The notes under the pieces: generated by a model
What the model was told of the DNA's origin: nothing
Databases searched by the model: none
Seen by the model: the letters and a program-made list of their open reading frames with translations, nothing else
Assembly (NCBI RefSeq): GCF_902826655.1
Contig: NZ_CADEFR010000002.1
Span: forward strand, 62,001 to 126,000
Source: an uncultured Methylibium sp.
Lineage (GTDB): Bacteria; Pseudomonadota; Gammaproteobacteria; Burkholderiales; Burkholderiaceae_C
Direction: 5' to 3'
DNA length: 64,000 nt
Program-made: the position numbers and the translations under genes
In this document: positions 41,044 through 62,634 of the stretch, in pieces
How the letters are laid out: each line of letters opens with the position of its first letter
Position numbering within the stretch: the first letter of the stretch is position 1

Positions 41044-41086
41044 CTCGACATTCTCGCCCCGGGATCCGTTGCTGGCGCTTGCGGAC

Positions 41087-41638
41087 TCACGTCGCACCTC
41101 CTCGGCCGGCTTCGCGCGAATCGGCCCTTGGCCGGAACGAGGCCAGCACGAGCAGCACCGCGCTGCCGACGATGAAGATGTCGGCCAGATTGAAGGCGGG
41201 CCAGTGCATGCCGCGCCAATGCAGGTCGAGGTAGTCGACCACCGCGCCGATGCGCAGCCGGTCGACGACATTGCCGAGCGCGCCGCCGATCAGGCCGACG
41301 TAGGCGGCCGTTTCGAGTCGGCTGCGAACGCCGCGCCACAGCAGCACGGCGAGCGCCACGCTGACGGCCAGGCCGACCGCGGTGAGCGCGTGGCGCTGCC
41401 AGCCGCCCGCGTCGGCGAGGAACGAGAACGACGCGCCGGGGTTGAGGACATGGACAAGATTGAACCAGGCGGTGACGGTGATGCCTTCGCCCAGAGGCAG
41501 ATTCGCGGCGACCACCCACTTGATGCCCTGATCCAGCACGAGGAGCAAGGCGGCGACGCCCATCAGCAGCCACCAGCGGCCCCGCGACGCGGCGGCCGCC
41601 GCGCGTGGTTCGACAAGGCCGACGGATGCGGGAGTCAT
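41087..41638 (-). CDS. lspA: lipoprotein signal peptidase LspA, first copy
   Basis: The 183-residue protein has four membrane helices and the two catalytic Asp regions NVVDRLRIGAVVDYLDLHW and FNLADIFIV. LspA cleaves prolipoprotein signal peptides before the lipidated Cys. Paralogous lspA genes are common next to Pb/Cd/Zn P-type ATPases (pbrC in the pbr operon). It overlaps the DUF3703 gene by four bases and precedes the PCuAC gene. A second lspA is at 56467, also behind an ATPase. Its client lipoproteins here could include CzcB and the small lipoproteins. Confidence 0.9.
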   Translation of the reverse strand: MTPASVGLVEPRAAAAASRGRWWLLMGVAALLLVLDQGIKWVVAANLPLGEGITVTAWFNLVHVLNPGASFSFLADAGGWQRHALTAVGLAVSVALAVLLWRGVRSRLETAAYVGLIGGALGNVVDRLRIGAVVDYLDLHWRGMHWPAFNLADIFIVGSAVLLVLASFRPRADSREAGRGGAT

Positions 41639-41997
41639 CGGTCGCGGTCCTCGATCAGCCGCTCGAGATCGGGCGGGATTGCCATCGGCTTGAACGCACT
41701 GACGTTCGAACCGCCGGTGTTGCCGACCGGCAGGCGGCCGACCAGATGGCCCACCGGCACCAACGCGATGCGCATCAACTGGCCGGTCACTTCGCGCCGG
41801 TCGCCTGCCGCCCAGCCGATCCGAAGCATCTGCCAGTGCACCCGCACATGCGGCACGAAGTCGAGTTGCCCGAGCACATGCGCGCGCTCGAGGGCCGCGA
41901 ACGCGCTCTTGGCGTCGCCGGCGGACCGGTGCCGGGCAGCCTCGGCCATTGCGGCCTCGAAGGCCTCGATGTGCGGTGATCCTGTCGTTGTCGTCAC
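41635..41997 (-). CDS. DUF3703 family protein
   Basis: A GTG start at 41997 overlaps the cadA stop as GTGA and gives 120 residues; the frame continues upstream but only with antisense-type sequence. The helical N-terminal half (FEAAMAEAARHRSAGDAKSA, then LERAHVLGQLDFVPHVRVHW) and the C-terminal LPVGNTGGSNVSAFKPMAIP are the DUF3703 pattern. These small cytoplasmic proteins accompany metal-efflux genes; their function is unknown. A frameshifted relative is at 51341-51735. Confidence 0.8.
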   Translation of the reverse strand: MTTTTGSPHIEAFEAAMAEAARHRSAGDAKSAFAALERAHVLGQLDFVPHVRVHWQMLRIGWAAGDRREVTGQLMRIALVPVGHLVGRLPVGNTGGSNVSAFKPMAIPPDLERLIEDRDR

Positions 41998-44255
41998 TTG
42001 CCCTCCCCTTTCTTCAACAGCCGCAGGCCGTTCAGCACGACCAGCAGGCTCGCGCCCATGTCGGCAAACACCGCCATCCACATCGACGCGTTGCCGAATA
42101 CCGCGAGCACCAGGAACACCGCCTTGATGCCCAGCGCCAGCGTGATGTTCTGCCACAGCACGGCATGCGTCGACCGCGACAGCCGCACGGTCTCGGCGAT
42201 GCGGCGCAGATCGTCGTTCATCACCACCACGTCGGCCGCTTCCATCGCGGTGTCGGTGCCGGCGGCGCCCATCGCCACGCCAATGTCGGCCTGCGCCAGC
42301 GCCGGCGCGTCGTTGATGCCGTCACCGGTCATCGCGGTCAGGCCATGTTCTGCCTGCAGCGCCTTGATCGCTTCGAGCTTGTCCTCGGGCAGCAGGTTCC
42401 CGCGCGCTACGTCGATCCCGGCCTCGTGCGCAATGGCGGTGGCCGTGGCCTGATTGTCGCCGGTCAGCATCACCGGCGTGATGCCGAGTGCCTTGAGCGA
42501 TGCCACCGCATCGCGCGACGACGGCTTGATCGTGTCGGCAACAGCGAACAAGGCGACGGGGCCTGCGTCGGAGGCCAGCAGGCTGACGGTGCGACCCGCT
42601 TCCTCGTGCGTGCGCAAGGTGGTCTCCAGCGCCGGGGAGCATTGGCCACGCTCCTCGATCAACCGGTGGTTGCCGAGCACGTAGACCGTTCCGTCGATGT
42701 CGGCCTGGACACCGCGACCGGCGATGGCCTTGAAGTCCTTCGCTTCGACGCTGTTGGGCCGCAGGCCCGCAGCGATGGCACGGGACACCGGATGGTCGGA
42801 GTGCCCTGCCAGCGCCGCGGCGATGTGCTCGGCGGCGGCAGCATCGGTCCCCGGACCGAGCACCTCCCAAGCCACCAGCTTGGGCTTGCCCTCGGTGATC
42901 GTGCCGGTCTTGTCCAGCGCGATGGCCTTGAGCTTGCGCGCCTCTTCCAGATAGATCCCGCCCTTGATCAGAATGCCGCGCCGCGCAGCGGCGGCCAGGC
43001 CGCTGACGATCGTCACGGGGGTCGAGATCACCAGCGCGCAGGGGCAGGCGATGACCAGCAGCACCAGCGCCTTGTAGACCGCCTGCATCCAGGTCCAGCC
43101 GAGCAGCCAGGGGCCGAGCAGCGCCACGGCCAGCGCGATGACGAAGACCGCCGGCGTGTAGACGGCGGCGAAGCGGTCGACGAAGCCCTGCGTGGGCGCG
43201 CGCGTGCCCTGCGCCTCTTCCACGGCGTGGATGATGCGCGCGAGCGTCGAGTTCGACGCCAGCGCGTTGACCTCGAACTCGAAGGTGCCGGTCTCGTTGA
43301 TCGTGCCGGCGAACACTGGATCGCCGACCGCTTTGTCCACCGGGATGCTCTCGCCGGTCACCGGCGCCTGGTTGATGCTGGAACTGCCGGCGGATACCAC
43401 GCCGTCCATCGGCACGCGCTCGCCGGGCCGCACCCGCGCGACGGCACCCAGCGCCACGGATGCGACCGGCACGGTCGCCCAGCTGCCGTCGGCCTGCCGC
43501 ACCGAGGCTTCCTCGGGCGCCATGGCCAGCAAGCCCTTGATCGCGTTGCGGGCGCGATCGACAGCACGCGCCTCGATCGCCTCCGCAATGGCGTACAGCG
43601 CCATCACCATGGCGGCCTCCGGCCACTGGCCGATGGCGAACGCGCCTGTCACAGCCACGGTCATCAGGGCATTGATGTTCAACCGCCCACGGCGCAGCGC
43701 GGTCAGGCCCTTCTTGTAGACGTCGAACCCGGCCAGCCAGATCGCCGCGGCCGCCACGGCGAGCCCCGCGGCCTTCCAGACCTGCGTGTCCGGGGCGAAG
43801 AAGCCGAGCACCTCCGCGCCCAAGGCCAGCAGCAGGGCACCACCGAGCCGCCACGCCCCTTCCGATCCGGCGCCGTGCTCATGGTCCTCCGATTCGGTTC
43901 CCGCTTCGCTGGTCGAGCCAGCGCCCTTCTCCGACACCGGCTGCGGATCGAATCCGGCCATGCGGATGGCGGCCACGGCCTGTTCGACGGAAGCAAGCGG
44001 CGCGTCGATGGCCAGCGTGCGCTGACCGAGCTGAAAGCTCATCGCGCGGATGTCGGCGATGTGCTCGACCGCGCGTCGGATCTCCGACTCCTCGCTGGCA
44101 CAGTCCATCGTCGGCACGCGGAACCGGGCCCAACCGGCGGGTGCGGCGGCGCCCGGCGGCACTGGCGCGGCGCAGGCGGGCCCGTGGCAGGCGCCGCAGG
44201 CGTCGGCGGGCTCGCTGGCGGCAGCGGATTTGGCGTGGGTATGTGTGGTGCTCAC
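41994..44255 (-). CDS. cadA: Cd/Zn/Pb-exporting P1B-type ATPase
   Basis: The 753-residue ATPase opens with a Cys/His-rich leader (ADACGACHGPACAAP) and one HMA domain (about 45-110, TMDCASEESEI, a single Cys followed by Glu). It has eight membrane helices, the CPC motif VIACPCALVISTPV, phosphorylation site LDKTGTITEGKP, the SDHP motif (HSDHPVSRA), and GDGINDAPALAQADIGVAMG. It exports divalent soft metals from the cytoplasm. A His/Glu patch (EDHEHGAGSEG) follows the HMA domain. It is the first gene of a coupled six-gene operon, transcribed from a MerR-type promoter shared with the divergent cadR. Confidence 0.93.
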   Translation of the reverse strand: MSTTHTHAKSAAASEPADACGACHGPACAAPVPPGAAAPAGWARFRVPTMDCASEESEIRRAVEHIADIRAMSFQLGQRTLAIDAPLASVEQAVAAIRMAGFDPQPVSEKGAGSTSEAGTESEDHEHGAGSEGAWRLGGALLLALGAEVLGFFAPDTQVWKAAGLAVAAAAIWLAGFDVYKKGLTALRRGRLNINALMTVAVTGAFAIGQWPEAAMVMALYAIAEAIEARAVDRARNAIKGLLAMAPEEASVRQADGSWATVPVASVALGAVARVRPGERVPMDGVVSAGSSSINQAPVTGESIPVDKAVGDPVFAGTINETGTFEFEVNALASNSTLARIIHAVEEAQGTRAPTQGFVDRFAAVYTPAVFVIALAVALLGPWLLGWTWMQAVYKALVLLVIACPCALVISTPVTIVSGLAAAARRGILIKGGIYLEEARKLKAIALDKTGTITEGKPKLVAWEVLGPGTDAAAAEHIAAALAGHSDHPVSRAIAAGLRPNSVEAKDFKAIAGRGVQADIDGTVYVLGNHRLIEERGQCSPALETTLRTHEEAGRTVSLLASDAGPVALFAVADTIKPSSRDAVASLKALGITPVMLTGDNQATATAIAHEAGIDVARGNLLPEDKLEAIKALQAEHGLTAMTGDGINDAPALAQADIGVAMGAAGTDTAMEAADVVVMNDDLRRIAETVRLSRSTHAVLWQNITLALGIKAVFLVLAVFGNASMWMAVFADMGASLLVVLNGLRLLKKGEGK

Positions 44256-44282: not shown

Positions 44283-44313
44283 ATTGAAAACCCTGAAGTC
44301 GGTGTAGAGTCAA
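44283..44313 (-). promoter_or_regulatory. MerR-type promoter of the cadA operon
   Basis: On the minus strand the -35 TTGACT (44313-44308) and -10 TTCAAT (44288-44283) are separated by 19 bp, the long spacer typical of MerR-activated promoters. The dyad at 44290-44310 (arms ACCCT and AGAGT) fills the spacer. It lies between cadA and the divergent cadR. Confidence 0.82.
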
Positions 44314-44340
44314 GATCCTCGATCCACCACGGAAAAGACG

Positions 44341-44784
44341 ATGCGCATCGGCGACCTGGCCGAATCGACCGGCACGGCGGTCGAGACCATCCGCTTCTAC
44401 GAGCGCGAGGGCCTGATCCCCGCGGCGCAGCGCGCCGACAACAACTACCGCGTGTACACGGCTGCCCATGCCGAGCGGCTGGCGTTCATCCGCCATTACC
44501 GCAACCTGGACATGACGCTGGACGAGATCCGGACGCTGCTGCGGCTGCGCGATGCGCCCTCGCAGGATTGCGGCGAGGTCAACGCACTGCTCGACGAGCA
44601 CATCGGGCACGTCACCCACCGCATCCACGAACTGCGGACGCTGCAAAAGGAGCTAAAGGCTCTGCGCGCAAGGTGCGGCACGCCGCATGCGATCGAGCAG
44701 TGCGGCATCCTCAACGAGCTCGACACCGCGGCCGCCCAGTCGACCTCCGCGTCACCACATCGCCACATCCGCGGTACGCACTGA
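44341..44784 (+). CDS. cadR: CadR/PbrR-type MerR-family regulator
   Basis: The 147-residue regulator has the MerR winged helix (RIGDLAESTGTAVETIRFYE), a dimerisation helix, and metal-site Cys in DCGEV, ARCGTPH and EQCGIL. It has a His-containing tail (SPHRHIRGTH), as CadR proteins have. On binding Cd, Pb or Zn it would untwist 19-bp-spacer promoters to activate transcription. It is divergent from cadA with the operator between them. Four further promoters of the same architecture occur in the window (47345, 51279, 52685, 53416), so it may control a dispersed regulon; no second MerR gene was seen. Confidence 0.92.
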   Translation: MRIGDLAESTGTAVETIRFYEREGLIPAAQRADNNYRVYTAAHAERLAFIRHYRNLDMTLDEIRTLLRLRDAPSQDCGEVNALLDEHIGHVTHRIHELRTLQKELKALRARCGTPHAIEQCGILNELDTAAAQSTSASPHRHIRGTH

Positions 44785-44800
44785 GCCCCTGCCGCGGCGA

Positions 44801-44820
44801 ACATGACGAAGCTGTCATGT
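44801..44820 (+). promoter_or_regulatory. palindrome upstream of czcE
   Basis: ACATGAC (44801-44807) and GTCATGT (44814-44820) form an inverted repeat with a six-base centre, 126 bases before the czcE ATG. The downstream sequence TCCCG, CTGTTG, GCGG and a TAC/TAG element align with the region after 8345-8364. It is a probable operator for the same regulator. Confidence 0.6.
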
Positions 44821-44926
44821 TCCCGTTCAGCGGCTGTTGGAAAGCGGTTTCTACAGTCCCTTTCGATGCCAGCCCAGCGCGCGATCGCGCGCCGGCGGCA
44901 CCCCTCCCACATCGAAAGGACTGAAC

Positions 44927-45271
44927 ATGCAATCGACCCTCCGACTCCGCGCCGCTGCCCTCGTTGCCTTGAGCGTGCTTCCCCTCGCGGGCTTCGCCGC
45001 CAACGGCAACACGTTCATGAACGGCCAGTCGATCTACGGGCAGCCGGCGGCGCAGGGTGTGCCGGTGCGTTTCGTCGACCTGGCGTCCACCGACCGGCTC
45101 AACGTCGCCTATGGCGAGAGCGTGACCTTCCGCAGCGGCGCCAAGCAGTTTTCGTGGACCTTCGACGGGCTCGACCGCAGGTCCGTCGATGTGAACCAGA
45201 TCGCACCGGCAGGCTTCGCTGGCACGCCCTTCGTCGTGTACGTCGGCCGCAACCCGTCGAATCGCCGATAA
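44927..45271 (+). CDS. czcE: CzcE-family periplasmic copper/heavy-metal protein
   Basis: The start at 44927 gives 114 residues with a signal peptide (LRLRAAALVALSVLPLAGFA). The mature part contains YGQP, LNVAYGESVTFRSGAKQFSW and VVYVGRNPSNRR, matching the CzcE family, whose founding member is a periplasmic copper-binding dimer in Cupriavidus. A role as sink or sensor for Cu in the periplasm is expected. It carries its own promoter region with the ACATGAC palindrome and lies 142 bases after cadR. Confidence 0.82.
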   Translation: MQSTLRLRAAALVALSVLPLAGFAANGNTFMNGQSIYGQPAAQGVPVRFVDLASTDRLNVAYGESVTFRSGAKQFSWTFDGLDRRSVDVNQIAPAGFAGTPFVVYVGRNPSNRR

Positions 45272-45288
45272 GCAGCGCTACGCAACGC

Positions 45289-45648
45289 TCAGACCAGTTC
45301 CTGCACCAGGCTCGCCATGGTGGGTCGGGCACGCGGAAACTGCTCGCGCACCGCGCTGCGTTCGCTGATGCCCAGCACCAGGCCGACCTGCTCCTCGTCG
45401 GCGCCGCGGTCGTACAGGCGCGCCACCACCGTGCGGCGGATCGACAGTGGCGTCGCCCACTCCAGCTCCGCGTAGCGGAACAGCTTGCGGTAGGTCTCGA
45501 GGATCGGGCGGCAGAGGCAGCGCCGCCGACCCTCGGCGCCGTACTGCGTGATGCGGAAGCCCTCGCCCGTTGCACTCAGGAACAAGGGTCCGTCCGGATC
45601 GAGACCTCGGTAGGCGCCGCCGTCCGCGATGCCATGGCCCCGAGCCAC
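45289..45648 (-). pseudogene. C-terminal fragment of a tyrosine recombinase/integrase
   Basis: Over 119 residues, PLSIRRTVVARLYDRGADEE and VGLVLGISERSAVREQFP resemble the R-x-x-R box and following helix of tyrosine integrases (LRRT-A--L---GA-----LLGHS). The upstream catalytic Arg and core-binding domain are missing and no intact nearby gene completes it. It is a likely scar of a mobile element that brought in part of this region. It converges on czcE. Confidence 0.6.
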
Positions 45649-45702
45649 TCGTTCCGCGAGATAGGCGCCATGGGCGCAGCGCTATCTCATGCCGCGCGCC
45701 CT

Positions 45703-46206
45703 CTACTTCCGATCCGATTCGCTCGAAGCGTAGCGCGAGAAGACCGTGGTCGTGCCATCTGCGCCAACCAGGAGCACGTCGTAGGCCTCCCTCTGTTTGC
45801 CGTACTTCGGGCCGTCCATGCCAGGCGAACCCACCGGCATGCCGGGCACCGCCAGCCCCACGGCGTCGGTGCGCAGCTTGATGACCCGGTGCACGTCAGC
45901 GGCCGGAACGTGGCCTTCGATCACGAAGCCACGCACGACCGCCGTGTGGCATGCGCCCACCGATTCCGGCATCTTCAGCCGCCGACGTGCCTCTTTGTTG
46001 CCTTCGTTATGTACCCGCACGACGACGAAGCCGTTCTTCTCCATGTGGTCCAACCAATCCTGGCAGCAATCGCATCGGGCACCCTTCCACACTTGCATTC
46101 CGATAGGCGAATCCTGCGCCTGTGTGACTAGCGGCGAGGCCAGGGCCAGCGACAGAACCGAACGTCTCGTCAAAAACACGTTTCGATTGACGCTCATCCG
46201 ATCCAT
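45703..46206 (-). CDS. DUF411 secreted metal-binding protein
   Basis: The 167-residue protein has a leader with a twin-arginine-like start (LTRRSVLSLALASPLVTQAQ). Its DUF411 core has WKGARCDCCQDWLDHMEKNG, with three closely spaced Cys, then VGACHTAVVRGFVIEGHVPA and GLAVPGMPVGSPGMDG. The CxCC site, conserved His and Met-rich PGM repeats indicate copper or other soft-metal binding in the periplasm. Start could be the first Met or the fifth residue. A Cys-rich small gene lies upstream on the same strand. Confidence 0.82.
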   Translation of the reverse strand: MDRMSVNRNVFLTRRSVLSLALASPLVTQAQDSPIGMQVWKGARCDCCQDWLDHMEKNGFVVVRVHNEGNKEARRRLKMPESVGACHTAVVRGFVIEGHVPAADVHRVIKLRTDAVGLAVPGMPVGSPGMDGPKYGKQREAYDVLLVGADGTTTVFSRYASSESDRK

Positions 46207-46282
46207 TTGTCGTCCCTTTCGTGGCGCCCCGGGGCTCGGGCGGTGCTTCTCATCTTACCGATCGAGGTTGGCCTATAGGCGG

Positions 46283-46606
46283 TCACGGCGCAACAGAAGG
46301 TACACGGCCGACGGGCACCAGCACGAACAACAGTGCCAAGGCCGGAGCGACAGCGGCAGAAGACGGCGTCAGGTCCGGTGCCGGCTGCGCCGCTTCGCGT
46401 TGGCAGTACTCGGCACAGAGCGCTGGCTGGTCGGGATCCATGCCGGCGCCCGGCGTCATCACTCCTTCCTCGCACGGCATGGGAGCGCTGGCGAGGGCGG
46501 CCGCTTCTACCGGACAGGCATAGGCCGCGCGAGCCATCTGCGCGAACAGCTGGCAAGCAGCGGCCAAGGCTGCGGGCCATCGTCGTGTGGATGCCGTCCG
46601 CGTCAT
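46283..46606 (-). CDS. small Cys-rich secreted protein
   Basis: The 107-residue protein has an N-terminal hydrophobic signal, a middle part with spaced Cys (YACPVEA, MPCEEGV, ALCAEYCQRE) and a hydrophobic C-terminal helix (APALALLFVLVPVG). The layout of periplasmic Cys between two hydrophobic ends is seen in small proteins of copper-resistance loci, but I cannot name a family. It precedes the DUF411 gene by about 80 bases on the minus strand and may be co-transcribed. Confidence 0.6.
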   Translation of the reverse strand: MTRTASTRRWPAALAAACQLFAQMARAAYACPVEAAALASAPMPCEEGVMTPGAGMDPDQPALCAEYCQREAAQPAPDLTPSSAAVAPALALLFVLVPVGRVPSVAP

Positions 46607-46676
46607 GTGTCTAGGCTAGCCGATGGCCAGCACAGCGGCTGCTGGTTGCCAACGCCGCGCGGCGGTTGCGGGTCGC

Positions 46677-47315
46677 TCAGGCGCCCCTTCGAGCTAAACC
46701 CACCAGGTACTCCGTCACCACCAACGAGCGTTCGTTCGTCCCCGCCATCGAGCCAGTGGTCAGCCAGCTGCCGTCGACACCGATCGAAGGTGTGCCTTCG
46801 ATCTTGTACCCAGTGGCCAGCGCGGTGGCTTGCTTCGCTTTGGTGGCAACCGCGAAGGAGTTGAGCGCGTCCAGGAAGCGGGTCCGGTCAACGCCGTTCC
46901 TTGCCGCGAAGTCGGCGATCTCCTCGGCTTTCTCCAGGCGCTGGCGCTCAGCGTGAAGGGCCGCGAAAACCTTGCGGTGCAGCTGCTCGACCAGACCGAG
47001 CGTTTCGATCGCGAAATACACCTTCTGGTGCATCACGAACGGGACTTCGCGGAAGGCAACCGGTATGCGACGGAACAGCACGTCGGAGGGCAGCTTCTTC
47101 TGCCAGGCGTCGATCGCCGGTTCGAATGCGTTGCAGTGCGAGCAACCGTAGGCGAAGAACTCAAGCACCTCGACCTGCTTAGGATCGCGGGTAGGCTGAC
47201 GCGGCGAGATCGTCACGAAGTGCTTGCCCTCCGTGAATCTCTCCTGCGCAGCGGCGAGCAACGGCGAGGTGGCAAGCGAAGCGGCGGCGATCTTGACGAA
47301 ATGGCGGCGATCCAT
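46677..47315 (-). CDS. dsbA: DsbA-family thiol:disulfide oxidoreductase
   Basis: The start at 47315 gives 212 residues with a leader containing DRRHFVKIAAASL, which resembles a twin-arginine signal. Active site FFAYGCSHCNAFEP (CSHC) and cis-Pro IEGTPSIGVDG define a DsbA/DsbL-type oxidase. The long helical insertion (LHRKVFAALHAERQRLEKAE) is standard. A MerR-type promoter at 47345-47375 lies 30 bases upstream, suggesting metal-induced expression. It is the second DsbA-like gene in the window. Confidence 0.88.
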   Translation of the reverse strand: MDRRHFVKIAAASLATSPLLAAAQERFTEGKHFVTISPRQPTRDPKQVEVLEFFAYGCSHCNAFEPAIDAWQKKLPSDVLFRRIPVAFREVPFVMHQKVYFAIETLGLVEQLHRKVFAALHAERQRLEKAEEIADFAARNGVDRTRFLDALNSFAVATKAKQATALATGYKIEGTPSIGVDGSWLTTGSMAGTNERSLVVTEYLVGLARRGA

Positions 47316-47344
47316 GATGAACAACAGAAGTTCGGTGAACCGAC

Positions 47345-47375
47345 ATTCTTGAGCCTGCACCAACTACAGAGTCAA
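47345..47375 (-). promoter_or_regulatory. MerR-type promoter of dsbA
   Basis: On the minus strand, -35 TTGACT (47375-47370), 19 bp containing CTGTAG...GCAGG, then -10-like AAGAAT (47350-47345). Spacing and -35 match the cadA promoter. The -10 is weaker. Confidence 0.62.
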
Positions 47376-47454
47376 GTGCCCCAACATGGACGGACCCTGT
47401 CTGACGGGCCCATCGCTCTCGCTGCGCCGCCGTAGCAGCGCCGCCGCCTCGACC

Positions 47455-48732
47455 TCAAGGGCGCACGCGATCGATCACGACAGCGAGCTCGCCGTGCGGC
47501 GGCGCCGGCACGTCTCGCGCTTCAAGGTCACCGGAATCGGGTGCGGCAGTGCCCGAACGTGAAATGCGCGCGGCGACGACGACGCGGCTCGCCGTCGACA
47601 GCTTCGCCTGCGGCGTCATCGCCAGTGAATCGTCGAGCTGCACCTGGATCGGCGCTTTCGGCGCTGACGACAGCGTCTGACGCGACACGGCCAGCGGCAC
47701 CCGTGGGCCTTCTGCGGCACGCGCGAAAACGAACAGCGTGTCGCCGCTATGCACTTTGGCGGCGAGTTCAGGCGCGACGGTGACGGTGACGCGCAGCGCG
47801 CCGCGGTCGGCGGCGGCCGCGGCCGGTGCCGCCGGCGCTCTTGACGCGGACTGTTCTGCCAGCGGTGGCAAGCCCTTGGCCGCACGAGCACGGTCGATCG
47901 CTGTATCGAGGTCTTGAACCATCGGCGTGTCCGGCGGCAGGCGCGCACGCAGTCGCGTCCAGTGCGCGAGCGCGGCGTCATGGTCCTTCCGCGCCATCGC
48001 CGCCGCACCAGCCAAGGCCAATGCCTTGCCGTGGTCGGGATCGATCGCGAGCGCGCGCTGCAGCAGCGTCTCCGGCTCACCGGCGAGGTTGCGGCCCTGC
48101 ACGCGCGCGAGCGCGTCGGCATAGTCGACGAGCAGACCGGCATCGTTGTCGCGGTGCCGCAGCGCTTGCGCGAATGCGTCGCGCGCGGGCTCGGCCCGAT
48201 CGAGCTGCAGCAGCGATCTACCAAGCAGCGCCCAGCCCTCGACGTTGTCCGGCTCGGCCTTCAAGCGCTCAGCCAGGGTTTGCAGCGCGGCCTCCATGTC
48301 GACCGGCAAGGCTGGCATCGCTGGCGTCGGCGCGGCGCTGCCGGCAACAACGGCGGGGTTCAGTGCGTCGCGGCTGCCCAGATGCGCATACAGCACCGTG
48401 GCCGCGAGCGGCAACGCGAGCGCCAGCGCAATCGCGCTCTTGCGGCCACGCGTGGCGCGCGGCGCAGTCGAAGGCACGGCGGTCTCGTCGAGCACGCGCC
48501 GCTCGAGCTCGGTGCGCGCCGCGGCATGCTGCGGTGTGTCGAGGCTGCCGGCGGCCAGTTCGTCGTCGAGCTCGCGCAACTGCGCGCGAAGGATGTGCAG
48601 ATTGCTCTGCACAGAGTCGTCGGCCAGTGGCGCAGCACTGCCGCCGCGCAACAGCGACCGTAGCAGCACCCCGAGTGCCATGACGACGAGCAGCGCCGCA
48701 ACGACGACAAACGCCGCGAGTTGACCGGTCAT
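47455..48732 (-). CDS. ccmI: cytochrome c biogenesis protein CcmI
   Basis: The start at 48732 overlaps the ccmH stop (ATGA) and gives 425 residues. Two N-terminal membrane helices flank a coiled-coil segment (LRAQLRELDDELAAGSLDTP). TPR repeats follow (WALLGRSLLQLDRAEPARDA), then a C-terminal beta domain (LRVTVTVAPELAAKVHSGDT). CcmI presents apocytochrome c to CcmF/CcmH for haem ligation. It is the last gene of a ccmF-ccmH-ccmI operon that lacks ccmABCDE and ccmG. Confidence 0.88.
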   Translation of the reverse strand: MTGQLAAFVVVAALLVVMALGVLLRSLLRGGSAAPLADDSVQSNLHILRAQLRELDDELAAGSLDTPQHAAARTELERRVLDETAVPSTAPRATRGRKSAIALALALPLAATVLYAHLGSRDALNPAVVAGSAAPTPAMPALPVDMEAALQTLAERLKAEPDNVEGWALLGRSLLQLDRAEPARDAFAQALRHRDNDAGLLVDYADALARVQGRNLAGEPETLLQRALAIDPDHGKALALAGAAAMARKDHDAALAHWTRLRARLPPDTPMVQDLDTAIDRARAAKGLPPLAEQSASRAPAAPAAAAADRGALRVTVTVAPELAAKVHSGDTLFVFARAAEGPRVPLAVSRQTLSSAPKAPIQVQLDDSLAMTPQAKLSTASRVVVAARISRSGTAAPDSGDLEARDVPAPPHGELAVVIDRVRP

Positions 48733-49250
48733 CGCGGCGGCTCCCCATCCTCGCCCAGAAGCTTGCGTGCGCGCTCGTGCTCGGCCTCGGTCAGCGGCGC
48801 GGGCAGGGTCAGCGCGCGGCGTTGCCGCAGCACGCGTGCCAGCACGAACGCCATCACCGCCAGCATCACGAACGGCCCGGCCCACAGCAGCCAGGTCGTC
48901 GGCTTGACCGGCGGGGTGTAGAGCACAAAGTCGCCGTAGCGCTGCACCATGAAGTCGAGGATCTCGCGCTCGCTGCGGCCGGCGCGCAACTGCTCGCGCA
49001 CCTGGTTGCGCAGGTCTTTGGCCAGGCCGGCGTTGGACGCGGCGATGGTTTCGTTTTGGCAGACCAAGCAGCGCAGGTTGGCGGCGACGGCCTGCACGCG
49101 CGCCTCGAGCGCCGGGTCGGCGGCCAAGGGGCGGGCTTCCTGGGCGTGTATCGATGCCGCCGCGAACACCGCGACCAAGCTGACGAATGAGCCAGCCAGC
49201 GAGCGCGTCGAGCCGGCCAAGAGTCCGGTGACGAAAAATCCAATGGTCAT
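48729..49250 (-). CDS. ccmH: cytochrome c biogenesis protein CcmH
   Basis: The start at 49250 overlaps the ccmF stop and gives 173 residues. It has a signal peptide, the redox motif LRCLVCQNETI (C-x-x-C), a helical stretch REQLRAGRSEREILDFMVQR with YGDFVLYTPP, then a membrane helix. CcmH reduces the CXXCH Cys of apocytochromes. Normally ccmG precedes it; here it does not, though a CcmG/DsbE-like gene exists at 59384. Confidence 0.9.
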   Translation of the reverse strand: MTIGFFVTGLLAGSTRSLAGSFVSLVAVFAAASIHAQEARPLAADPALEARVQAVAANLRCLVCQNETIAASNAGLAKDLRNQVREQLRAGRSEREILDFMVQRYGDFVLYTPPVKPTTWLLWAGPFVMLAVMAFVLARVLRQRRALTLPAPLTEAEHERARKLLGEDGEPPR

Positions 49251-51241
49251 GCGCTGGCTGAGCGAGCGCCGCCGGCGGACGCACCTTCGTTCTGATGCTG
49301 CCTGCTCGTCACGCGATAGCGACGGTCCGCCACCGCGAGCAACCCGCCCAAGGCCATCAGCACGCAACCGCCCCAGATCCAGTTGACGAAGGGCTTGACG
49401 TACAGCCGCACGACCCAGGCACGGCCGTCGTCGAGCGGCTCCCCCATCGAGACATAGAGGTCGCGCGTGACGCCGCGGTCGATCGCCACTTCGGTCGTCG
49501 GACTGCGACTCACGCTGTAGAGGCGCTTGTCGGGGTACAGCTTGTCGACCAGCCGGCCGTCCTTCGACACTTCGAAGGTCGCCTGTACCGCCTGGTAGTT
49601 CGGGCCGGGCAACTCGCGCAAGCCGACGAGCTTGAAGTCGTAGCCGCCGACGCGCGCCGTGCTGCCCACCTCCATGCGCAAATCCTGCTCGGTCTGGAAG
49701 CCGCCGACGATGGTCACGCCGATCACGAACACCGCCACGCCGGCATGAGCGAGCAGCATTCCGTACCAGCTCCCGGTCTGCGTGGCGAGCCGCTGGCCCC
49801 ACAGCGCCAGCGGCTGCCCCTGCACACGCAGCCACAGCGTGTTCGCGGTCGTGGCCAGGATCCATGCGGCAACGAAGAGGAAGAAGCCGATCAGCGGCGT
49901 GAACTTGCCGAGCACGAAAGGCGCGATCACTGCGGCGACAAACGCCGCCGCTGCCGCCCAGCGCAGTTGCACCGCCAACTCAGGCAGCGTCGCTTTCTTC
50001 CAGCGCGAGATCGGGCCGACGCCCATCAGGAACAGCGCCGGCACCATCAACGGTACGAACACGGCGTTGTAGTACGCCGGACCGACCGAGATCTTGCCCA
50101 GGTTGAGCGCATCAAGCGCCAGCGGGTACAGCGTGCCGAGCATCACCGCCGCGGTCGCCACCATCAGCAGCAGGTTGTTGGCCAGGAGCATGCCTTCGCG
50201 TGAGACCGGCTCGAAGGCGCCGCCGATGCCCACGCGTGGGCCGCGCCAGGCAAACAGGGCGAGCGAGCCGCCGACGACGAGCACGAGAAAGCCGAGAATG
50301 AAGACACCGCGCGTCGGGTCGGTGGCAAAGGCGTGCACCGAGGTCAGCACGCCGGAGCGAACGAGGAAGGTGCCCAGCAGGCTCAACGCGAAAGCCAGAA
50401 TCGCCAGCAGCACCGTCCACATCTTGAAGCCGCCGCGCTTTTCCGTGACCGCCAGCGAGTGGATGAGCGCCGTGCCGACGAGCCACGGCATGAACGACGC
50501 GTTCTCCACAGGATCCCAGAACCACCAGCCGCCCCAGCCGAGTTCGTAGTAGGCCCAGGCGCTGCCCAGCGCGATGCCCAACGTGAGAAAGACCCACGCC
50601 ACTGTAGTCCACGGGCGGGACCATCGGGCCCACGTGCTGTCGAGTCGCCCGGAGATGAGCGCGGCGATGGCGAAGGCGAAAGCGACCGAGAAACCGACGT
50701 AGCCCATGTAGAGCAACGGCGGGTGGAAGATCATCCCTGGGTCCTGAAGCAGCGGGTTGAGGTCACGCCCGTTCTCGGCCGCGGGCAGCAGCCGCTCGAA
50801 CGGGTTGCTCGTGAACAGCGTGAACAGCAGAAAGCCGGTTGAGACGAGCCCCATCACCGCGATCACGCGGGCCACCATGACCGTGGGCAATTGGCGGGAG
50901 AACAGCGCCACCGCCACCGTCCAGCCTGCCAGGATCAACGTCCACAGCAGGATCGAACCCTCGTGGTTGCCCCAGGTCGCTGCCACGCGAAGCGGCAGGG
51001 GCAGCGCAGTGTTCGAGTTCTCCGCGACCAGTTGAACCGAGAAGTCGTTGTCGATGAAGGCCGAAGTCAGCGCGCCGTAGGCCAGCAGCACGAGCGCAAA
51101 CTGCACCAGCGCCGCGGGCCGCGCCAGCGCTACCCAGGAGGCTTGGCCGTTGAACGAGCCCGCAAGTGGCAGCACGCTTTGCGCGAGCATCACCACCGCG
51201 AGCGCCAGGATCAATGCGAAGTGGCCGATCTCTGGAATCAT
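49247..51241 (-). CDS. ccmF: cytochrome c haem lyase CcmF
   Basis: The 664-residue protein has about 14-15 membrane helices, WGNHEGSILLW near residue 90, and the haem-handling WWD region GWGGWWFWDPVENASFMPWL. Conserved periplasmic His are also present, as in CcmF. It joins haem from CcmE to apocytochrome c. Full length for the family. A weak MerR-type promoter lies just upstream (51279-51309). Its presence in a metal island suggests either a duplicate ccm set or repair of cytochrome maturation under metal stress. Confidence 0.92.
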   Translation of the reverse strand: MIPEIGHFALILALAVVMLAQSVLPLAGSFNGQASWVALARPAALVQFALVLLAYGALTSAFIDNDFSVQLVAENSNTALPLPLRVAATWGNHEGSILLWTLILAGWTVAVALFSRQLPTVMVARVIAVMGLVSTGFLLFTLFTSNPFERLLPAAENGRDLNPLLQDPGMIFHPPLLYMGYVGFSVAFAFAIAALISGRLDSTWARWSRPWTTVAWVFLTLGIALGSAWAYYELGWGGWWFWDPVENASFMPWLVGTALIHSLAVTEKRGGFKMWTVLLAILAFALSLLGTFLVRSGVLTSVHAFATDPTRGVFILGFLVLVVGGSLALFAWRGPRVGIGGAFEPVSREGMLLANNLLLMVATAAVMLGTLYPLALDALNLGKISVGPAYYNAVFVPLMVPALFLMGVGPISRWKKATLPELAVQLRWAAAAAFVAAVIAPFVLGKFTPLIGFFLFVAAWILATTANTLWLRVQGQPLALWGQRLATQTGSWYGMLLAHAGVAVFVIGVTIVGGFQTEQDLRMEVGSTARVGGYDFKLVGLRELPGPNYQAVQATFEVSKDGRLVDKLYPDKRLYSVSRSPTTEVAIDRGVTRDLYVSMGEPLDDGRAWVVRLYVKPFVNWIWGGCVLMALGGLLAVADRRYRVTSRQHQNEGASAGGARSASA

Positions 51242-51278
51242 TTGGGCGTGCCCTGCGCGTTGGAAGTCAACGCGGAGG

Positions 51279-51309
51279 AGTCTCGGGCCTAAAGTGGGTA
51301 CAGAGTCAA
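51279..51309 (-). promoter_or_regulatory. weak MerR-type promoter before ccmF
   Basis: On the minus strand, -35 TTGACT (51309-51304), 19 bp beginning CTGTACCCACT as in the promoter at 53416, then GAGACT (51284-51279) at the -10 position. The -35 and left dyad arm match the other sites; the -10 and right arm are poor, so it may be a decayed copy. Confidence 0.35.
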
Positions 51310-51340
51310 GCGCCGCGACGACCAGTTCTGTGCGCTGGGG

Positions 51341-51735
51341 TCAGACCTTTCGTTGAGCGATTTGCCGCGCGCTTGCGATCGACTCCGCCAGATCAGCCGG
51401 AATGGGTAGGGGCTTGGCCGGGCTCACGTTGGAGCCGGCGGTGTTGCCGGTGGGCACCAAATCGAACGGCGATCTCGTCGCCGCACCGACGATGCGGAGC
51501 AACTGGCCGCGGCCACTTCGCGAGGAACGCGGGTGCGCAGCGCCCAAGCCAGCATGCTTAGATGAACGCGGACGTGATGGAGTGTCGATGATTGGCCCAG
51601 AACATAGGCCCGTTCAAGATGAAGGAAACTGCTCGCGCGCTCGCCTCTGCGCAGGGCGCACCAAGCCTCGGTCAGCTCGGCGCTGACGTACGGGCGGATT
51701 GTCTGGTTGAAGGACGGCATCGACTGTCTCCTCAT
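51341..51735 (-). pseudogene. DUF3703 gene with a frameshift
   Basis: The 5' part encodes RPYVSAELTEAWCALRRGER, LERAYVLGQSSTLHHVRVHL and SMLAWALRTRVPREVA. The 3' part, in another frame, encodes GQLLRIVGAATRSPFDLVPT and GNTAGSNVSPAKPLPIPADL. Together they match the DUF3703 protein at 41635. The break is near 51510, where a two-base insertion in GGCCGCGGCC (an extra GC) shifts frame. It starts directly after the sterol-desaturase-like stop. A sequencing or assembly error at this GC-rich spot is the main alternative. Confidence 0.7.
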
Positions 51736-52596
51736 TCATGCACGGTCCGCGTGGGGTGGGTCCGGGAGGAACGGGTACACGAGTTGTTCACGGTAGCGGT
51801 GTGGGACCGGGTCGCCCTCGATGCCGATCGGCCCGAGCAGCGCACTGGGTCGATGGAACGTGCCGAACCAGTGATCCCACAACATCCAGAACTCGCCGAA
51901 GTTCACCTGGGCATCCGCAAAGCGCTCCCGGTGGTGCCAGCGGTGGACTTCCGCGACACCGACGAGGTAGCGTAGCGGCCCCAACCGGTAATCGAGATTC
52001 GCATGCTGGAACGCTAAGTGGACGGCGAGGATCACGAACCACCCGCCCACTACGTCCGCGGGCGTGCCGAGCACGCCGAGCGCCACCAGCCCGGGACCGG
52101 CCATCAGCACCGCGTGGACCGGATGCCGACGCTCCCCGTTCAGCCAATAGAGCCGCCGCGATGAGTGGTGGATGCTGTGCAGCCGCCACAGAAAGTCGTA
52201 ACGGTGGCTCATTCGGTGCACGGCGTACAGCGACAGGTCCAGCGGCACCCCTGCCAAGAACACCTGTGCGAGGAAGGGCCAGTCGCTGGGCCACCACACG
52301 CCCTCCCAGCCCACCCAGCCGCGCAAGAAGACGAAGCCGAGCACCGCCGCGTGCATGACCAGGAGATTGACAACTGCGTGGGCAACGTCGGCCGGAAAGT
52401 CGCGGTCCGGCGCCTGCCAGCGCGGATTGAACGGGAACCAGCGCTCGAGCAGTGCCACGGCCGCCAGCCCGCAGGCCACCAGCCCAGCCAGCCACGCCAG
52501 AGGCATGCTCCGGGACGGCGCCCACGCGACGCCGCTGATCACCAACGCCATCACTGCCGGAAAGGTCCCGTACCGGACCAGAGAAGGTACTGTCAT
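51736..52596 (-). CDS. sterol desaturase/fatty acid hydroxylase family membrane protein
   Basis: The 286-residue protein has four to five membrane helices and the three His boxes of the diiron hydroxylase superfamily: HRMSH, HSIHHSSRR and HRWHHRE, with HANLDYR between. Such enzymes use a diiron centre for O2-dependent hydroxylation or desaturation of lipids. The substrate is unknown. Members of this family occasionally lie in Burkholderiales metal loci. It is divergent from the CDF gene and 166 bases from it. Confidence 0.85.
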   Translation of the reverse strand: MTVPSLVRYGTFPAVMALVISGVAWAPSRSMPLAWLAGLVACGLAAVALLERWFPFNPRWQAPDRDFPADVAHAVVNLLVMHAAVLGFVFLRGWVGWEGVWWPSDWPFLAQVFLAGVPLDLSLYAVHRMSHRYDFLWRLHSIHHSSRRLYWLNGERRHPVHAVLMAGPGLVALGVLGTPADVVGGWFVILAVHLAFQHANLDYRLGPLRYLVGVAEVHRWHHRERFADAQVNFGEFWMLWDHWFGTFHRPSALLGPIGIEGDPVPHRYREQLVYPFLPDPPHADRA

Positions 52597-52684
52597 CGCA
52601 ACTCCGTACTTGTTGACCTCAGTGTTGCGAAGCGCTCACGGGCGCGCTTGAACAAACGTGCTGTTGGCCGAGAAAGTCGAGAGC

Positions 52685-52715
52685 TTGACTCTGTACTGGT
52701 TGCAGGGTTTTCAAT
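52685..52715 (+). promoter_or_regulatory. MerR-type promoter of the CDF exporter gene
   Basis: -35 TTGACT (52685-52690), 19 bp (CTGTACTGGTTGCAGGGTT), -10 TTCAAT (52710-52715). The -35, -10 and GGGTT arm are the same as at cadA. It is 47 bases upstream of the ATG. Confidence 0.82.
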
Positions 52716-52762
52716 ACGCACTGGGATATGGTCTGCCGTCTGCAGGCGATTGAGGGAACCGA

Positions 52763-53383
52763 ATGAGCGACGACGAAACACACGACCTCGACGCCAGCCA
52801 GGCCGCTGATCGCCGCATCCTGTGGCTGGTGCTGCTGATCAATGTCGGCCAATGCCTGGTTGGCGCGGTTGTGGGCCTCTGGGCGGCGTCCACCGCAGTG
52901 ATCGGCGCCGCGCTCGACAACCTGGCTGACGCGTCGGTCTACGGGGTCAGCCTCTACGCGGTCGGCCGCGCGGCGTCGATCAAGGTGCGGGCCGCCCGCC
53001 TGTCAGGATGGCTCCTCATCGGGCTGGCAGCGATGCTGGCAGTGGAGGTGCTGCGCCGCTTTTTTGGCGGCGAAGCGCCGGTGGGCCCCGCCATGATGGC
53101 CATGGCTGCCATCAACGCCGCGCTGAACATAGTCTGCCTGCGCCTGCTCAAGCGTCACCGCGCGGAAGACGTGAACTTCAAGGCATCTGCCATCTTTACC
53201 AATAACGATTCGATCGTGAACCTGGCGATCGTGCTATCGGGCGCGCTCGTGATGTGGTGGGGCTCGAACCTGCCGGACCTCGTCCTCGGCCTGATGGTGG
53301 CCGGCATCGCCGGCAACGGCGGCCGAGAGATCCTGGCCGAGGCCCGCGAGGCCGCGGAAAAGGCGAACTCCGAAACGACCTGA
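52763..53383 (+). CDS. short CDF-family cation exporter
   Basis: The 206-residue protein has about five to six membrane helices. The TM2 site lies in ALDNLADASVYGVSL and the TM5 site in IFTNNDSIVNLAIV. It ends after TM6, so the C-terminal cytoplasmic metal-sensing dimer domain of CzcD-like proteins is absent. Such short CDF proteins lie beside Cd/Pb ATPase genes. It should export a divalent cation. It is preceded by a strong MerR-type promoter and followed 86 bases later by the four-HMA ATPase. Confidence 0.85.
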   Translation: MSDDETHDLDASQAADRRILWLVLLINVGQCLVGAVVGLWAASTAVIGAALDNLADASVYGVSLYAVGRAASIKVRAARLSGWLLIGLAAMLAVEVLRRFFGGEAPVGPAMMAMAAINAALNIVCLRLLKRHRAEDVNFKASAIFTNNDSIVNLAIVLSGALVMWWGSNLPDLVLGLMVAGIAGNGGREILAEAREAAEKANSETT

Positions 53384-53415
53384 CCCTCGCACGGACCCGG
53401 CAACCCGAGTCGCGC

Positions 53416-53446
53416 TTGACCCCGTACCCACTACAGGCCGTCAAAT
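53416..53446 (+). promoter_or_regulatory. MerR-type promoter of the four-HMA ATPase gene
   Basis: -35 TTGACC (53416-53421), 19 bp (CCGTACCCACTACAGGCCG), -10 TCAAAT (53441-53446). The spacer has a CTGTAG-like right arm read on the opposite strand. It is 23 bases before the ATG. Confidence 0.72.
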
Positions 53447-53468: not shown

Positions 53469-56400
53469 GTGCAAACCAACCACCCTCATGACACAGGTGC
53501 GCCACCACGCGCCGACGATCGCGATCCCACGTCCCCGCTGACTTTGCAAAGGTCGGCCTTCCGCATCGCCAACATGGACTGCCGCAACGAGGAAGCGGCG
53601 ATCCGGTCCCGGTTGTCCCAAGTTTCCCAGGTCGGGTCGCTCTCGTTCGACCTGCCCGCTCGGCGACTTCTGGTCGAACACCAGTTGCCCGATCCCCAAC
53701 CACTGCTTCAAGCCTTGACCGAGATCGGCATGTCTGCGTCGTTGGAAGCTGACGGCCCAGGCGCGGACGGCGCCGCATGCGGATCCGCGTGTTCTTCGGC
53801 CTGTAGCGGCAGCAAGAGCGTGCCGTCGACCGACGTCTTCACCATCCCCGACATGGACTGCCGCAACGAAGAGGCGGCCATCCGTGCCCGTCTCGAGCCG
53901 CTGGACGGGGTGAACTCGCTGGCATTCGACCTGCGCGCGCACCGGCTGTCGGTCGTGCACACCTTGCCGTCAGTTGATCCGATCCTGCAGGAGTTGCAGG
54001 CGATCGGGATGCCGGCGCACCTTGGCGACGCGATGAAGGCGGCACCACCCGCGAGACCCGACGCGGACGCCAGCTGCGGCCCCTGCGGCAAGCCCGAGAT
54101 ATCGCTGGCGCAGGCGGAGAGCGGCAACACCACACAGTTCCTGATTACGAACATGGACTGCCCGACGGAGGAAGCGCTGATCCGCAAGCGCCTGGGCAAG
54201 GTCGACGCGATCGACCGACTCGACTTCGACCTGATGAACCGCCGCCTGGCCGTGCAGCACCGCCTGGGCGATCCGGCACCCGTGCTCGATGCGCTGCGCG
54301 AGATCGGCATGAAAGCTACCGTTGAGCGCGAGGCCGGGGCGAGCCCCCAGGGACAGGCGACCTACCTGATCGAGAAGATGGACTGCCCCACGGAGGAGGC
54401 GCTGCTGCGCAAGGCCCTCGAGGGCCTGCCCGGCGTCGCAGCGCTGCAGTTCGACCTGATGAGCCGCACGCTGACCGTCAGCCACTCGCTGCACGACGTG
54501 TCGCCGATCACCGCGGCGATCGAGCGCCTTGGCATGGCGCCGGTCCTGCGGGACAGCAGCCAGCCCGTGCCGGCGGTGACCCGCGAGTTCGGTAGCGGCA
54601 TCTCGAAGAGCCAGTGGCTGCGCATGGCGGCCGCGGGCGTGCTGGCGATCGGAGCCGAAGTGATGGCGTTCTCCGGCATGGGCGAATCGTCGCTGCCGGT
54701 GGTGGGCGCCTCGCTCGCGGCCATCGCTCTGGGCGGGATCGAGACGCTAAAGAAGGGCTGGATCGCGCTGCGCACGCGGTCGCTCAACATGAACCTGCTG
54801 ATGACGGTCGCCGTCATCGGCGCCGCGCTGATCGGCCAATGGCCGGAGGCCGCGGTGGTGATCTGGCTGTTCGGCATCGCCGAAATGATCGAGGCGCTGA
54901 GCCTGGACCGCGCCCGCAACGCGATCCGCAAGCTGATGGACCTGGCGCCGGAAACGGCACTCGTGAAACAGGCCGACGGACGCTGGGACGAGGTCAAGGC
55001 GGAGACAGTGCCGCTCGGCGCCCTGGTCCGCGTGCGGCCCGGCGAACGCATCGCGCTCGACGGCGTGGTCGTCTCCGGTGCCTCGGCGGTCAACCAGGCG
55101 CCCATCACCGGCGAAAGCATGCCGGTGGAGAAGAACCCGGGCGACACGGTCTTTGCCGGCACGATCAACGAGCGCGGCACGCTCGAGTTCGAAGTGCGCT
55201 CGCGCAAGGGCGAGACCACGCTTGACCGCATCGCCCGCTCGGTGCAGGACGCGCAGGGCCAGCGCGCGCCGACGCAGCGCTTCGTGGACCGCTTCGCCAG
55301 CGTCTACACACCCGTCGTCTTCGCGCTGGCGATCGGCATCGCCGTGATCCCGCCGCTGTTCTTCGGCGGCGCCTGGTTCGATTGGGTCTACAAGGCGCTG
55401 GTGATGCTGGTGATCGCGTGCCCCTGCGCGCTGGTGATCTCGACGCCGGTCACCGTGGTCAGCGGCCTGGCCGCAGCGGCACGGCGCGGCATCCTCGTCA
55501 AGGGTGGCCTGTACCTGGAACAGGGGCGCATGCTGCGCGCGGTGGCGCTGGACAAGACCGGCACATTGACACACGGCCGACCGGCACTGACCGAGACGGT
55601 GCCCGTGGCCTCGATGTCACGCGAAGAGGTTCTGCGGGTCGCAGCGAGCCTCGACGCATTGTCGGAGCACCCGGTTGCGACCGCCATCGTCAACGGCTAC
55701 GGCGACCGGCCGCACGCCACCGTGCAGCGCTTCGAAGCCTTGGCCGGGCGTGGCGTCAAGGGCGACATCGACGGCCAGACCTACTACATCGGAAACCAGC
55801 GGCTGGCTACCGAACTGGGCGTTGCGAGCGAGCCGGTGCGCGCGCTGCTGGAGCAGTTCGAAGCGCAGGCCAAGACCGCCGTGGTCCTTGCCACGGGCCA
55901 GCAGGCGCTGGCCGTGCTGGCGGTGGCCGACACGGTGCGCGACAGCAGCAAGCTGGCGGTGGCCGAGCTGAAGCGTCTCGGCGTCGAGCCGGTGATGCTG
56001 ACCGGCGACAACAGCAAGACGGCGCAGGCCGTGGCGGCGCAGGTCGGCATCACGGACGCGCGCGGTGACCTGCTGCCGCACGACAAGCTGGACGCCATCG
56101 AGAAGTTGGCGGCCCGGGGCGCCGTGGGCATGGTCGGCGACGGCGTCAACGACGCACCGGCGCTGGCGAAGTCGAACATCGGGTTCGCCATGGGCGCTGC
56201 CGGCACCGACACCGCGATCGAGACTGCCGACGTGGCGCTGATGCAGGACGACCTGCGCAAGCTGCCCGAGTTCATCACGCTGTCGCGCCGGGTCGGCGGC
56301 ATCCTGAAGGCCAACATCGCGTTCGCCATCGGCACCAAGGCATTGTTCATGGTGCTCGCGTTCACGGGCCATGCGAGCCTGTGGCTGGCCATCCTCGCGG

Positions 56401-62627: not shown

Positions 62628-62634
62628 GCGTCCA

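Follow-up and report, generated by a model that had tools for sequence, protein, structure and literature searches.

Activation at promoters with over-long spacers is an established property of MerR-type proteins, and metal-resistance regulons have so far mostly been described as pumps and their regulators. The closest described systems are the CadR/PbrR regulons of Cupriavidus metallidurans, pbr of pMOL30 and cadR-cadA-cadC on CMGI-1, which, in the portions of the papers drawn on here, consist of a regulator and pumps and, in pbr, also of signal-peptidase and other membrane genes (PMC1526738; PMC11580412 for the make-up of cad). The nearest metal-linked Dsb-like system known to us is ScsABCD, described in passages of PMC3672137 as a module of DsbD-like, DsbA-like and thioredoxin-like proteins. 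Here we analyze a stretch of 64,000 nucleotides from an uncultured Methylibium sp. of the Burkholderiales (hereinafter, the window; contig NZ_CADEFR010000002.1, C2:62001-126000 of an assembly of 4,221,868 bases in 142 contigs), where metal export genes and genes of periplasmic thiol chemistry lie behind a common family of CadR-type promoters. We consider it likely that these genes make up a single CadR/PbrR-type regulon, served by two CadR paralogues and eight promoters of the MerR type, in which metal export is extended to Dsb/Scs-type periplasmic thiol maintenance.

An earlier note on this DNA had described five sites of the form TTGAC(T/C), 19 bp and a -10-like hexamer, located upstream of cadA, dsbA2, ccmF, a CDF-family exporter gene and a second P1B ATPase gene (Table 1), and all five were borne out: coordinates, strand of the named gene and the spacer of exactly 19 bp between the hexamers are correct in each case, and the sites end 22-47 nt upstream of the start codons. 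Beyond the hexamers, the five share the core TTGACYCYRTASNNRNTNCAGG; on alignment, the cadA and CDF sites have the same two hexamers and the same GGGT arm, as claimed, and the cadA site agrees with the dsbA sites in its arms and spacing. When up to 3 mismatches are allowed, the 22-nt core matches 6 times in the window (the five sites and one opposite-strand 3-mismatch match within the dsbA site), compared to an average of 0.32 matches in 100 shuffles, none of which gives more than 2. At the same tolerance of 3 mismatches, the 31-nt pattern gives 8 matches in the 4.22-Mb genome, all within 22 kb (C2:106284-128165, hereinafter, the island), compared to 1 for the reversed pattern; for the core with at most 1 mismatch, the numbers are 8 and 0. 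The rest of the genome contains no match to the 31-nt pattern at this threshold, so that the motif, far from being equally frequent in unrelated promoters, is confined to the island. The motif is not due to chance, an origin ruled out by the shuffles, the reversed pattern and simulated positions (with the matrix described below, 0 of 16.8 million first-order positions reach a score of 13, the maximum being 11.5). The set of five sites is thus real but incomplete, with three more sites past the window end, upstream of dctQ, a gene for a 76-residue protein and a third dsbA gene (dsbA3). All eight spacers are 19 bp long, and the right operator arm is imperfect at the dsbA2, dsbA3, ATPase and ccmF sites; the ccmF site, which the note had rightly called weak, has the lowest matrix score of the eight (14.4 vs 20.2-52.3).

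Inside the window, cadR1 is indeed the only MerR-type gene, as stated; 1,266 bp beyond the window end, however, another CadR-type gene, cadR2, begins. The genome encodes 10 MerR-type domains, and only cadR1 and cadR2 pass the CadR-PbrR cut-off (TIGR02047), the next-best protein scoring 97.6 against 151.45 bits; with all eight matches located there too, the sites and their likely regulators lie within the same 22 kb. The best solved-structure match of cadR1 is CadR (E 2.7e-47), and both paralogues align with the solved CadR, including its three cysteines, which we take to be the metal ligands.

Like the pbr and cad systems, the island combines a TIGR02047 regulator divergent from a cadmium-type ATPase, the 19-bp spacer and an LspA partner, and its UppP presumably resembles PbrB of pbr. 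The differences are the eight promoters, the two paralogues and the targets, which would include dsbA, dsbB, dsbD, tlpA, dsbE and dctQM. The broad regulon envisaged previously, in which the promoters of dsbA and cadA would bring in LspA, PCuAC, DsbB and two DsbA proteins, is hence corrected to two paralogues and eight sites and gains the third DsbA and the dctQ-dctM-TlpA-DsbD-DsbE genes, a single same-strand run that starts from the site at 64640-64669 and ends at 59387 inside the window. A TRAP-type DctQ-DctM pair amid metal and thiol genes also occurs in genomes G105, G200, G055 and Ideonella (Piscinibacter) sakaiensis (loci L110, L111, L122 and L057). The DsbD-type protein of the run scores 120 with the NCBIfam DsbD model, below the cut-off of 330, and its residues 31-131 have a weak match (E 2.4e-6) in 6c29, an entry named 'Putative metal resistance protein', which we take to be Proteus ScsB. 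This N-terminal match may add to the likeness with ScsABCD, from which the island differs in its CadR-type promoters, ScsABCD being controlled by a copper or envelope-stress system, and in its DsbA proteins, which appear to resemble classical DsbA rather than ScsC. The best structural matches of dsbA2 are classical DsbA chains; the best match of dsbA1 is 3gyk, with weak ones (E 3.9e-5 to 5.8e-4) named copper/metal resistance or DsbA-like protein.

To follow the promoters across relatives, we used a matrix trained on 24 sites, none of them upstream of a dsbA gene and three from the island itself (cadA, CDF and ATPase); dsbA genes were identified by protein similarity first, and their upstream DNA was then scored. 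Among 399 genomes of the family, 118 have a DsbA match at 1e-60; 30 returned loci, 4 named ones, the genome's own genes and one further copy were examined, and a tree was built for 35 DsbA sequences after removal of L078, L080 and L085 as duplicates. A matrix site is located 57-81 bp upstream of the matched protein start in 11 dsbA genes from 9 genomes: the island's dsbA2 and dsbA3, an Aquabacterium metagenome-assembled genome (MAG), I. sakaiensis 201-F6, G056, G344, G105, G200, G387 (two copies) and a Burkholderiales MAG. In the tree, these 11 proteins fall together in a clade of 17 members (support, 100/99), whose active sites are CSHC, CEHC or CGHC (CEHC in dsbA3), whereas none of the 18 CPHC DsbAs examined, including the genome's own on contig C8, has a site (best score, -10.0). 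Compared to the housekeeping DsbA of the family, the island proteins thus belong to the same fold family, with best solved matches named DsbA, and differ in the non-CPHC active site, the separate clade and the CadR-type promoter. Two DsbAs of this type, in G200 and G387 (L088, L129), have the CGHC active site, which is that of protein disulfide isomerase. In a class-wide search of 369 genomes at 1e-75, the own genome was the only match to the island DsbA, and all 52 plasmid records retrieved by tblastn with dsbA2 are below 60% identity.

In the family, 85 of 200 genomes match the core with at most 1 mismatch, with 137 matches compared to 19 for the reversed pattern. In 30 of these 85 genomes, with one site taken from each, the first frame behind the site encodes a P1B ATPase in 17 cases and a CDF exporter in 6 (exporters, 23 of 30), the remainder being an FTR1-type permease, a DUF3703 protein, a DsbA (one each) and 4 unrelated or unassigned frames. 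Because this census consists mostly of exporters, the motif appears to be a CadR/PbrR promoter, with dsbA a real but uncommon target. Context maps were drawn for relatives picked for holding sites or island-type DsbAs, a non-random sample in which gene names come from tblastn with the window proteins and co-transcription is predicted from strand and spacing. Thiol genes lie behind sites in eight of these genomes (G200, G105, G344, G056, G055, G183, G077 and G255), in arrangements that include dsbA-CDF (G200 and G105), dsbA-dsbD-dsbE (G344), tlpA-dsbD-dsbE divergent from cadR2 (G056), tlpA-dsbB-dsbA1 (G055), dsbB-dsbA1-dsbD (G200), ATPase-dctQM-lspA-cadR-tlpA-dsbB-dsbA1 (G105) and cadA-lspA-PCuAC-dsbB-dsbA1 (G183, in the same order as in the window). 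No other observation argues as strongly for a selected association as this recurrence of thiol genes behind sites in varied orders. At the promoter level, the link between metal and thiol genes is well supported, and the part of the earlier proposal that joined export and thiol chemistry in one CadR-type regulon stands on the confinement of the promoter family, its footprint upstream of dsbA in 9 genomes and the varied operons.

From this arrangement, we infer CadR binding, the inducing metal, co-transcription and a protective role. On binding a soft metal such as Cd(II) or Pb(II), CadR would untwist the 19-bp spacer and allow RNA polymerase to start at the eight promoters, whose targets would have two jobs. 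The two P1B ATPases and the CDF exporter would pump metal out of the cytoplasm; such pumps deliver soft metals to the periplasm, whose cysteines are among their main targets, and the second job would be to keep these cysteines in order as the metal arrives. DsbA and DsbB may oxidize exposed thiols, limiting metal binding to free thiols, and the DsbD-type, perhaps ScsB-like, reductase with its TlpA and DsbE-type partners may reduce wrong disulfides, while LspA and UppP would act on the envelope. Mercury and cadmium sensitivity of Escherichia coli dsbA and dsbB mutants was reportedly described by Stafford in 1999. In passages of PMC8708908, E. coli lacking DsbA is cadmium-sensitive, and this sensitivity serves as an assay of DsbA activity. 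We see an even chance for a more general proposal, namely, that these betaproteobacteria possess a metal-triggered periplasmic thiol program, in which a Cd/Pb sensor would bring in a dedicated non-CPHC DsbA clade and a DsbD/ScsB-type reductase and so unite export and disulfide remodeling in one switch, which would have been put together repeatedly with varying gene orders and is undescribed in the literature searched. In that literature, which leaves out most subscription papers, just two papers mention both CadR and DsbA, with DsbA confined to a reference title in one and to a gene table in the other; 'dsb' and 'disulfide' are absent from the main text of PMC1526738 and PMC5045206, and 'dsb' and 'cytochrome c' from the passages of PMC3384475 consulted. 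If the proposal is true, a sensor that commands both disulfide formation and disulfide reduction would imply that damage to periplasmic thiols accounts for much of the toxicity of Cd and Pb, an idea testable in the culturable I. sakaiensis 201-F6, which carries the dsbA site.

Several observations weigh against a single metal-thiol regulon. The 11 dsbA sites include two weak ones (15.1 for one G387 copy and 13.4 for the Burkholderiales MAG), and a direct site is lacking for 6 members of the clade of 17: those of G255 and G077 are inside same-strand runs headed by a site, that of G220 is cut by a contig end, as is the run that contains the G055 member, and Azohydromonas lata and G393 have no site in the stretch examined. 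Both island ATPases slightly exceed the copper-ATPase cut-off as well (for cadA, TIGR01511 411.6 vs 397, along with 494.7 vs 313.5 for the cadmium family TIGR01512). A Cupriavidus gilardii plasmid has a CDF-ATPase-lspA-araC-cadR core with sites upstream of CDF and ATPase, and the 20.6 kb inspected there include no gene annotated as dsb, so that the thiol part is not obligatory; likewise, an Aquincola plasmid has a site upstream of cadA and no annotated dsb gene in 20.7 kb. Campylobacter jejuni dsbA mutants are not cadmium-sensitive, according to passages of PMC8708908. In C. metallidurans, the neighboring CDF gene cdfX is mainly under ZntR control, and CadR may be a repressor (passages of PMC11580412); it is mainly for this reason that gene neighborhood is not to be taken for regulation. 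For the island, a ZntR regulator, considered by analogy with cdfX, is rejected, given that no protein of the genome passes the ZntR cut-off.

The alternative that survives best, although we regard it as unlikely, is that the CadR operators are real and the thiol genes came by them as the island grew through promoter duplication and gene capture, so that no selected metal-disulfide link exists and the regulation is real or a relic. The metal core of the C. gilardii plasmid fits such a history, and the island itself seems to contain one such capture, at ccmF. The own dsbA2-ccmI-ccmH-ccmF DNA (46698-51255) is 92% identical to that of G056, and the identity ends 14 bp before the ccmF start; the CcmF proteins are 99% identical, and the DNA upstream of ccmF in G056 contains no site; the frames there match CcmE, a CcmC-type protein and, at the position of ccmA, an ABC transporter. 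When the 34 nt that follow the ccmF site are aligned with dsbA leaders, 1 in 2,000 shuffles attains the score obtained with G056, and likewise with G344; the corresponding fraction for ten further leaders ranges from 0.029 (own dsbA3) to 0.76 (own dsbA2). The gene order in the Aquabacterium MAG is FA_hydroxylase - DUF3703 - site - dsbA, compared to FA_hydroxylase - DUF3703 - site - ccmFHI - site - dsbA2 in the window. The ccmF site is thus probably a captured dsbA promoter, and, under the simplest history compatible with these alignments, the ccm block arrived downstream of a dsbA promoter that was already there and whose -10 hexamer then became GAGACT. Capture by chance alone would not predict the retention of sites upstream of one DsbA clade in 9 genomes, nor the presence of dsbA, dsbB, dsbD and tlpA behind sites in varied orders, and a selected metal-thiol regulon remains our preferred reading. 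In G056, the FA_hydroxylase gene (L054:16667-16858) is broken off near the start of the ccm block, as if the block had inserted there. The DUF3703 gene beside FA_hydroxylase in the window (51424-51735) covers model positions 2-66 of 109, compared to 5-108 in the copy after cadA, and looks truncated.

Less probable still is a real regulon that serves cytochrome c maturation or the assembly of copper enzymes, with DsbD, DsbE, CcmFHI and PCuAC supporting haem- and copper-protein biogenesis under metal stress. DsbE exceeds its cut-off, DsbD-DsbE runs lie behind sites in G056 and G344, PCuAC and DsbB follow cadA both here and in G183, and the -35 hexamer and left arm of the ccmF site are intact. 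Conversely, ccmF is preceded in G056 by the ABC-transporter, CcmC-type and CcmE frames rather than by a site, the -10 hexamer of the own ccmF site is decayed, and a DsbE-type protein would also fit an Scs-like module. Furthermore, contig C47 carries a second CcmF_C match, because of which the ccmFHI block need not be the only copy in the cell. Given the 99% identical CcmF of G056 without a site and the resemblance of the own leader to dsbA leaders, ccmF was rejected as a conserved target; the ccmFHI block is probably a recent, lineage-specific passenger, and the cytochrome c part of the regulon, which the earlier note had tentatively included, looks like an accident. Finally, it is very unlikely that another MerR-family protein (e.g. 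of the mercury or copper type) or another metal drives the thiol promoters with CadR in control of cadA alone: the number of MerR-type domains in the genome and the cross-control at cdfX (passages of PMC11580412) would leave room for it, whereas the CadR-PbrR cut-off, which excludes every protein of the genome but the two regulators of the island, and the arms and spacing common to the dsbA and cadA sites argue for CadR.

Table 1. Genes and CadR-type sites of the island, in window coordinates (continued: same numbering, beyond the window end)
Feature	Coordinates	Strand	Support or remark
dsbA1, DsbA-like, CETC active site (5' end approximate)	39474..40208	-	Pfam Thioredoxin_4 and DSBA
dsbB	40127..40588	-	Pfam PF02600
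PCuAC-type copper chaperone (5' end approximate)	40582..41064	-	Pfam PF04314
lspA1, lipoprotein signal peptidase	41087..41638	-	TIGR00077 above cut-off
DUF3703 protein, downstream of cadA	41635..42156	-	Pfam PF12487
cadA, P1B-type ATPase, one HMA domain	41994..44255	-	Pfam E1-E2_ATPase and HMA
CadR-type promoter, cadA run	44283..44313	-	TTGACT - 19 bp - TTCAAT; matrix score 52.3 (in training set)
cadR1, Cd(II)/Pb(II)-type MerR regulator	44341..44784	+	Divergent from cadA; TIGR02047 179.8 bits, cut-off 151.45
dsbA2, CSHC active site	46677..47317 (likely ATG start 47315)	-	Pfam DSBA
CadR-type promoter, dsbA2	47345..47375	-	TTGACT - 19 bp - AAGAAT; kept before related dsbA genes
ccmF-ccmH-ccmI block	47455..51241	-	Pfam CcmF_C, CcmH and CcmI domains
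Weak CadR-type site, ccmF	51279..51309	-	TTGACT - 19 bp - GAGACT
CadR-type promoter, CDF gene	52685..52715	+	TTGACT - 19 bp - TTCAAT
CDF-family exporter, 206 aa	52763..53383	+	Pfam Cation_efflux; TIGR01297 62.5, below cut-off 82.35
CadR-type promoter, four-HMA ATPase	53416..53446	+	TTGACC - 19 bp - TCAAAT
P1B ATPase, several N-terminal HMA domains	53469..56486	+	Pfam; TIGR01512 503.3 vs 313.5
lspA2	56467..56970	+	Pfam Peptidase_A8
AraC-family regulator	56963..57745	+	Pfam HTH_18
uppP, undecaprenyl-diphosphatase	57764..58609	+	TIGR00753 above cut-off
TlpA/ResA-like thioredoxin-fold protein	58748..59254	+	Pfam Redoxin
DsbE/CcmG-type protein, last of dctQ-headed run	59387..59896	-	TIGR00385 173.8 bits, cut-off 123.15
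DsbD-type protein, perhaps ScsB-like	59905..62058	-	Pfam DsbD_N, DsbD_TM and Thioredoxin_7
TlpA-type protein	62052..62657	-	Pfam Redoxin; best NCBIfam model TlpA, below its cut-off
dctM, TRAP transporter large permease (5' end approximate)	62635..63915	-	Pfam DctM
dctQ	64016-64582 (continued)		Pfam DctQ
Site before dctQ	64640-64669 (continued)		Heads dctQ-dctM-TlpA-DsbD-DsbE run
Site before 76-aa protein (no Pfam match)	65212-65241 (continued)		Divergent from cadR2
cadR2, second CadR-type MerR gene	65266-65766 (continued)		TIGR02047 172.1 bits, cut-off 151.45
Site before dsbA3	66136-66165 (continued)		dsbA3 at 66197-66835

In the second ATPase, referred to as four-HMA, three HMA stretches individually exceed the Pfam limit. 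An origin of the locus as a CMGI-1/PAGI-2-type island was not established: among 20 listed of 146 plasmid records matching a 14.5-kb query, at most 18% of the query is covered, and none covers 80%. In G052 (L055:12150), a CadR-type site heads a gene for a cytochrome c/FTR1-type permease, and such a gene is also annotated beside cadR on the C. gilardii plasmid. A CzcE-type gene follows cadR1 (window 44927-45271), and in I. sakaiensis (L057:16923) and G183 (L064:10599) a further CadR-type site is located downstream of a CzcE-type gene. By inspection of the sequence, the left part of the window (3676-31780) contains RND-type efflux genes, e.g. 11903-15067 and 21058-24180, whose starts are nearly identical, as well as a two-component pair at 5404-7426.

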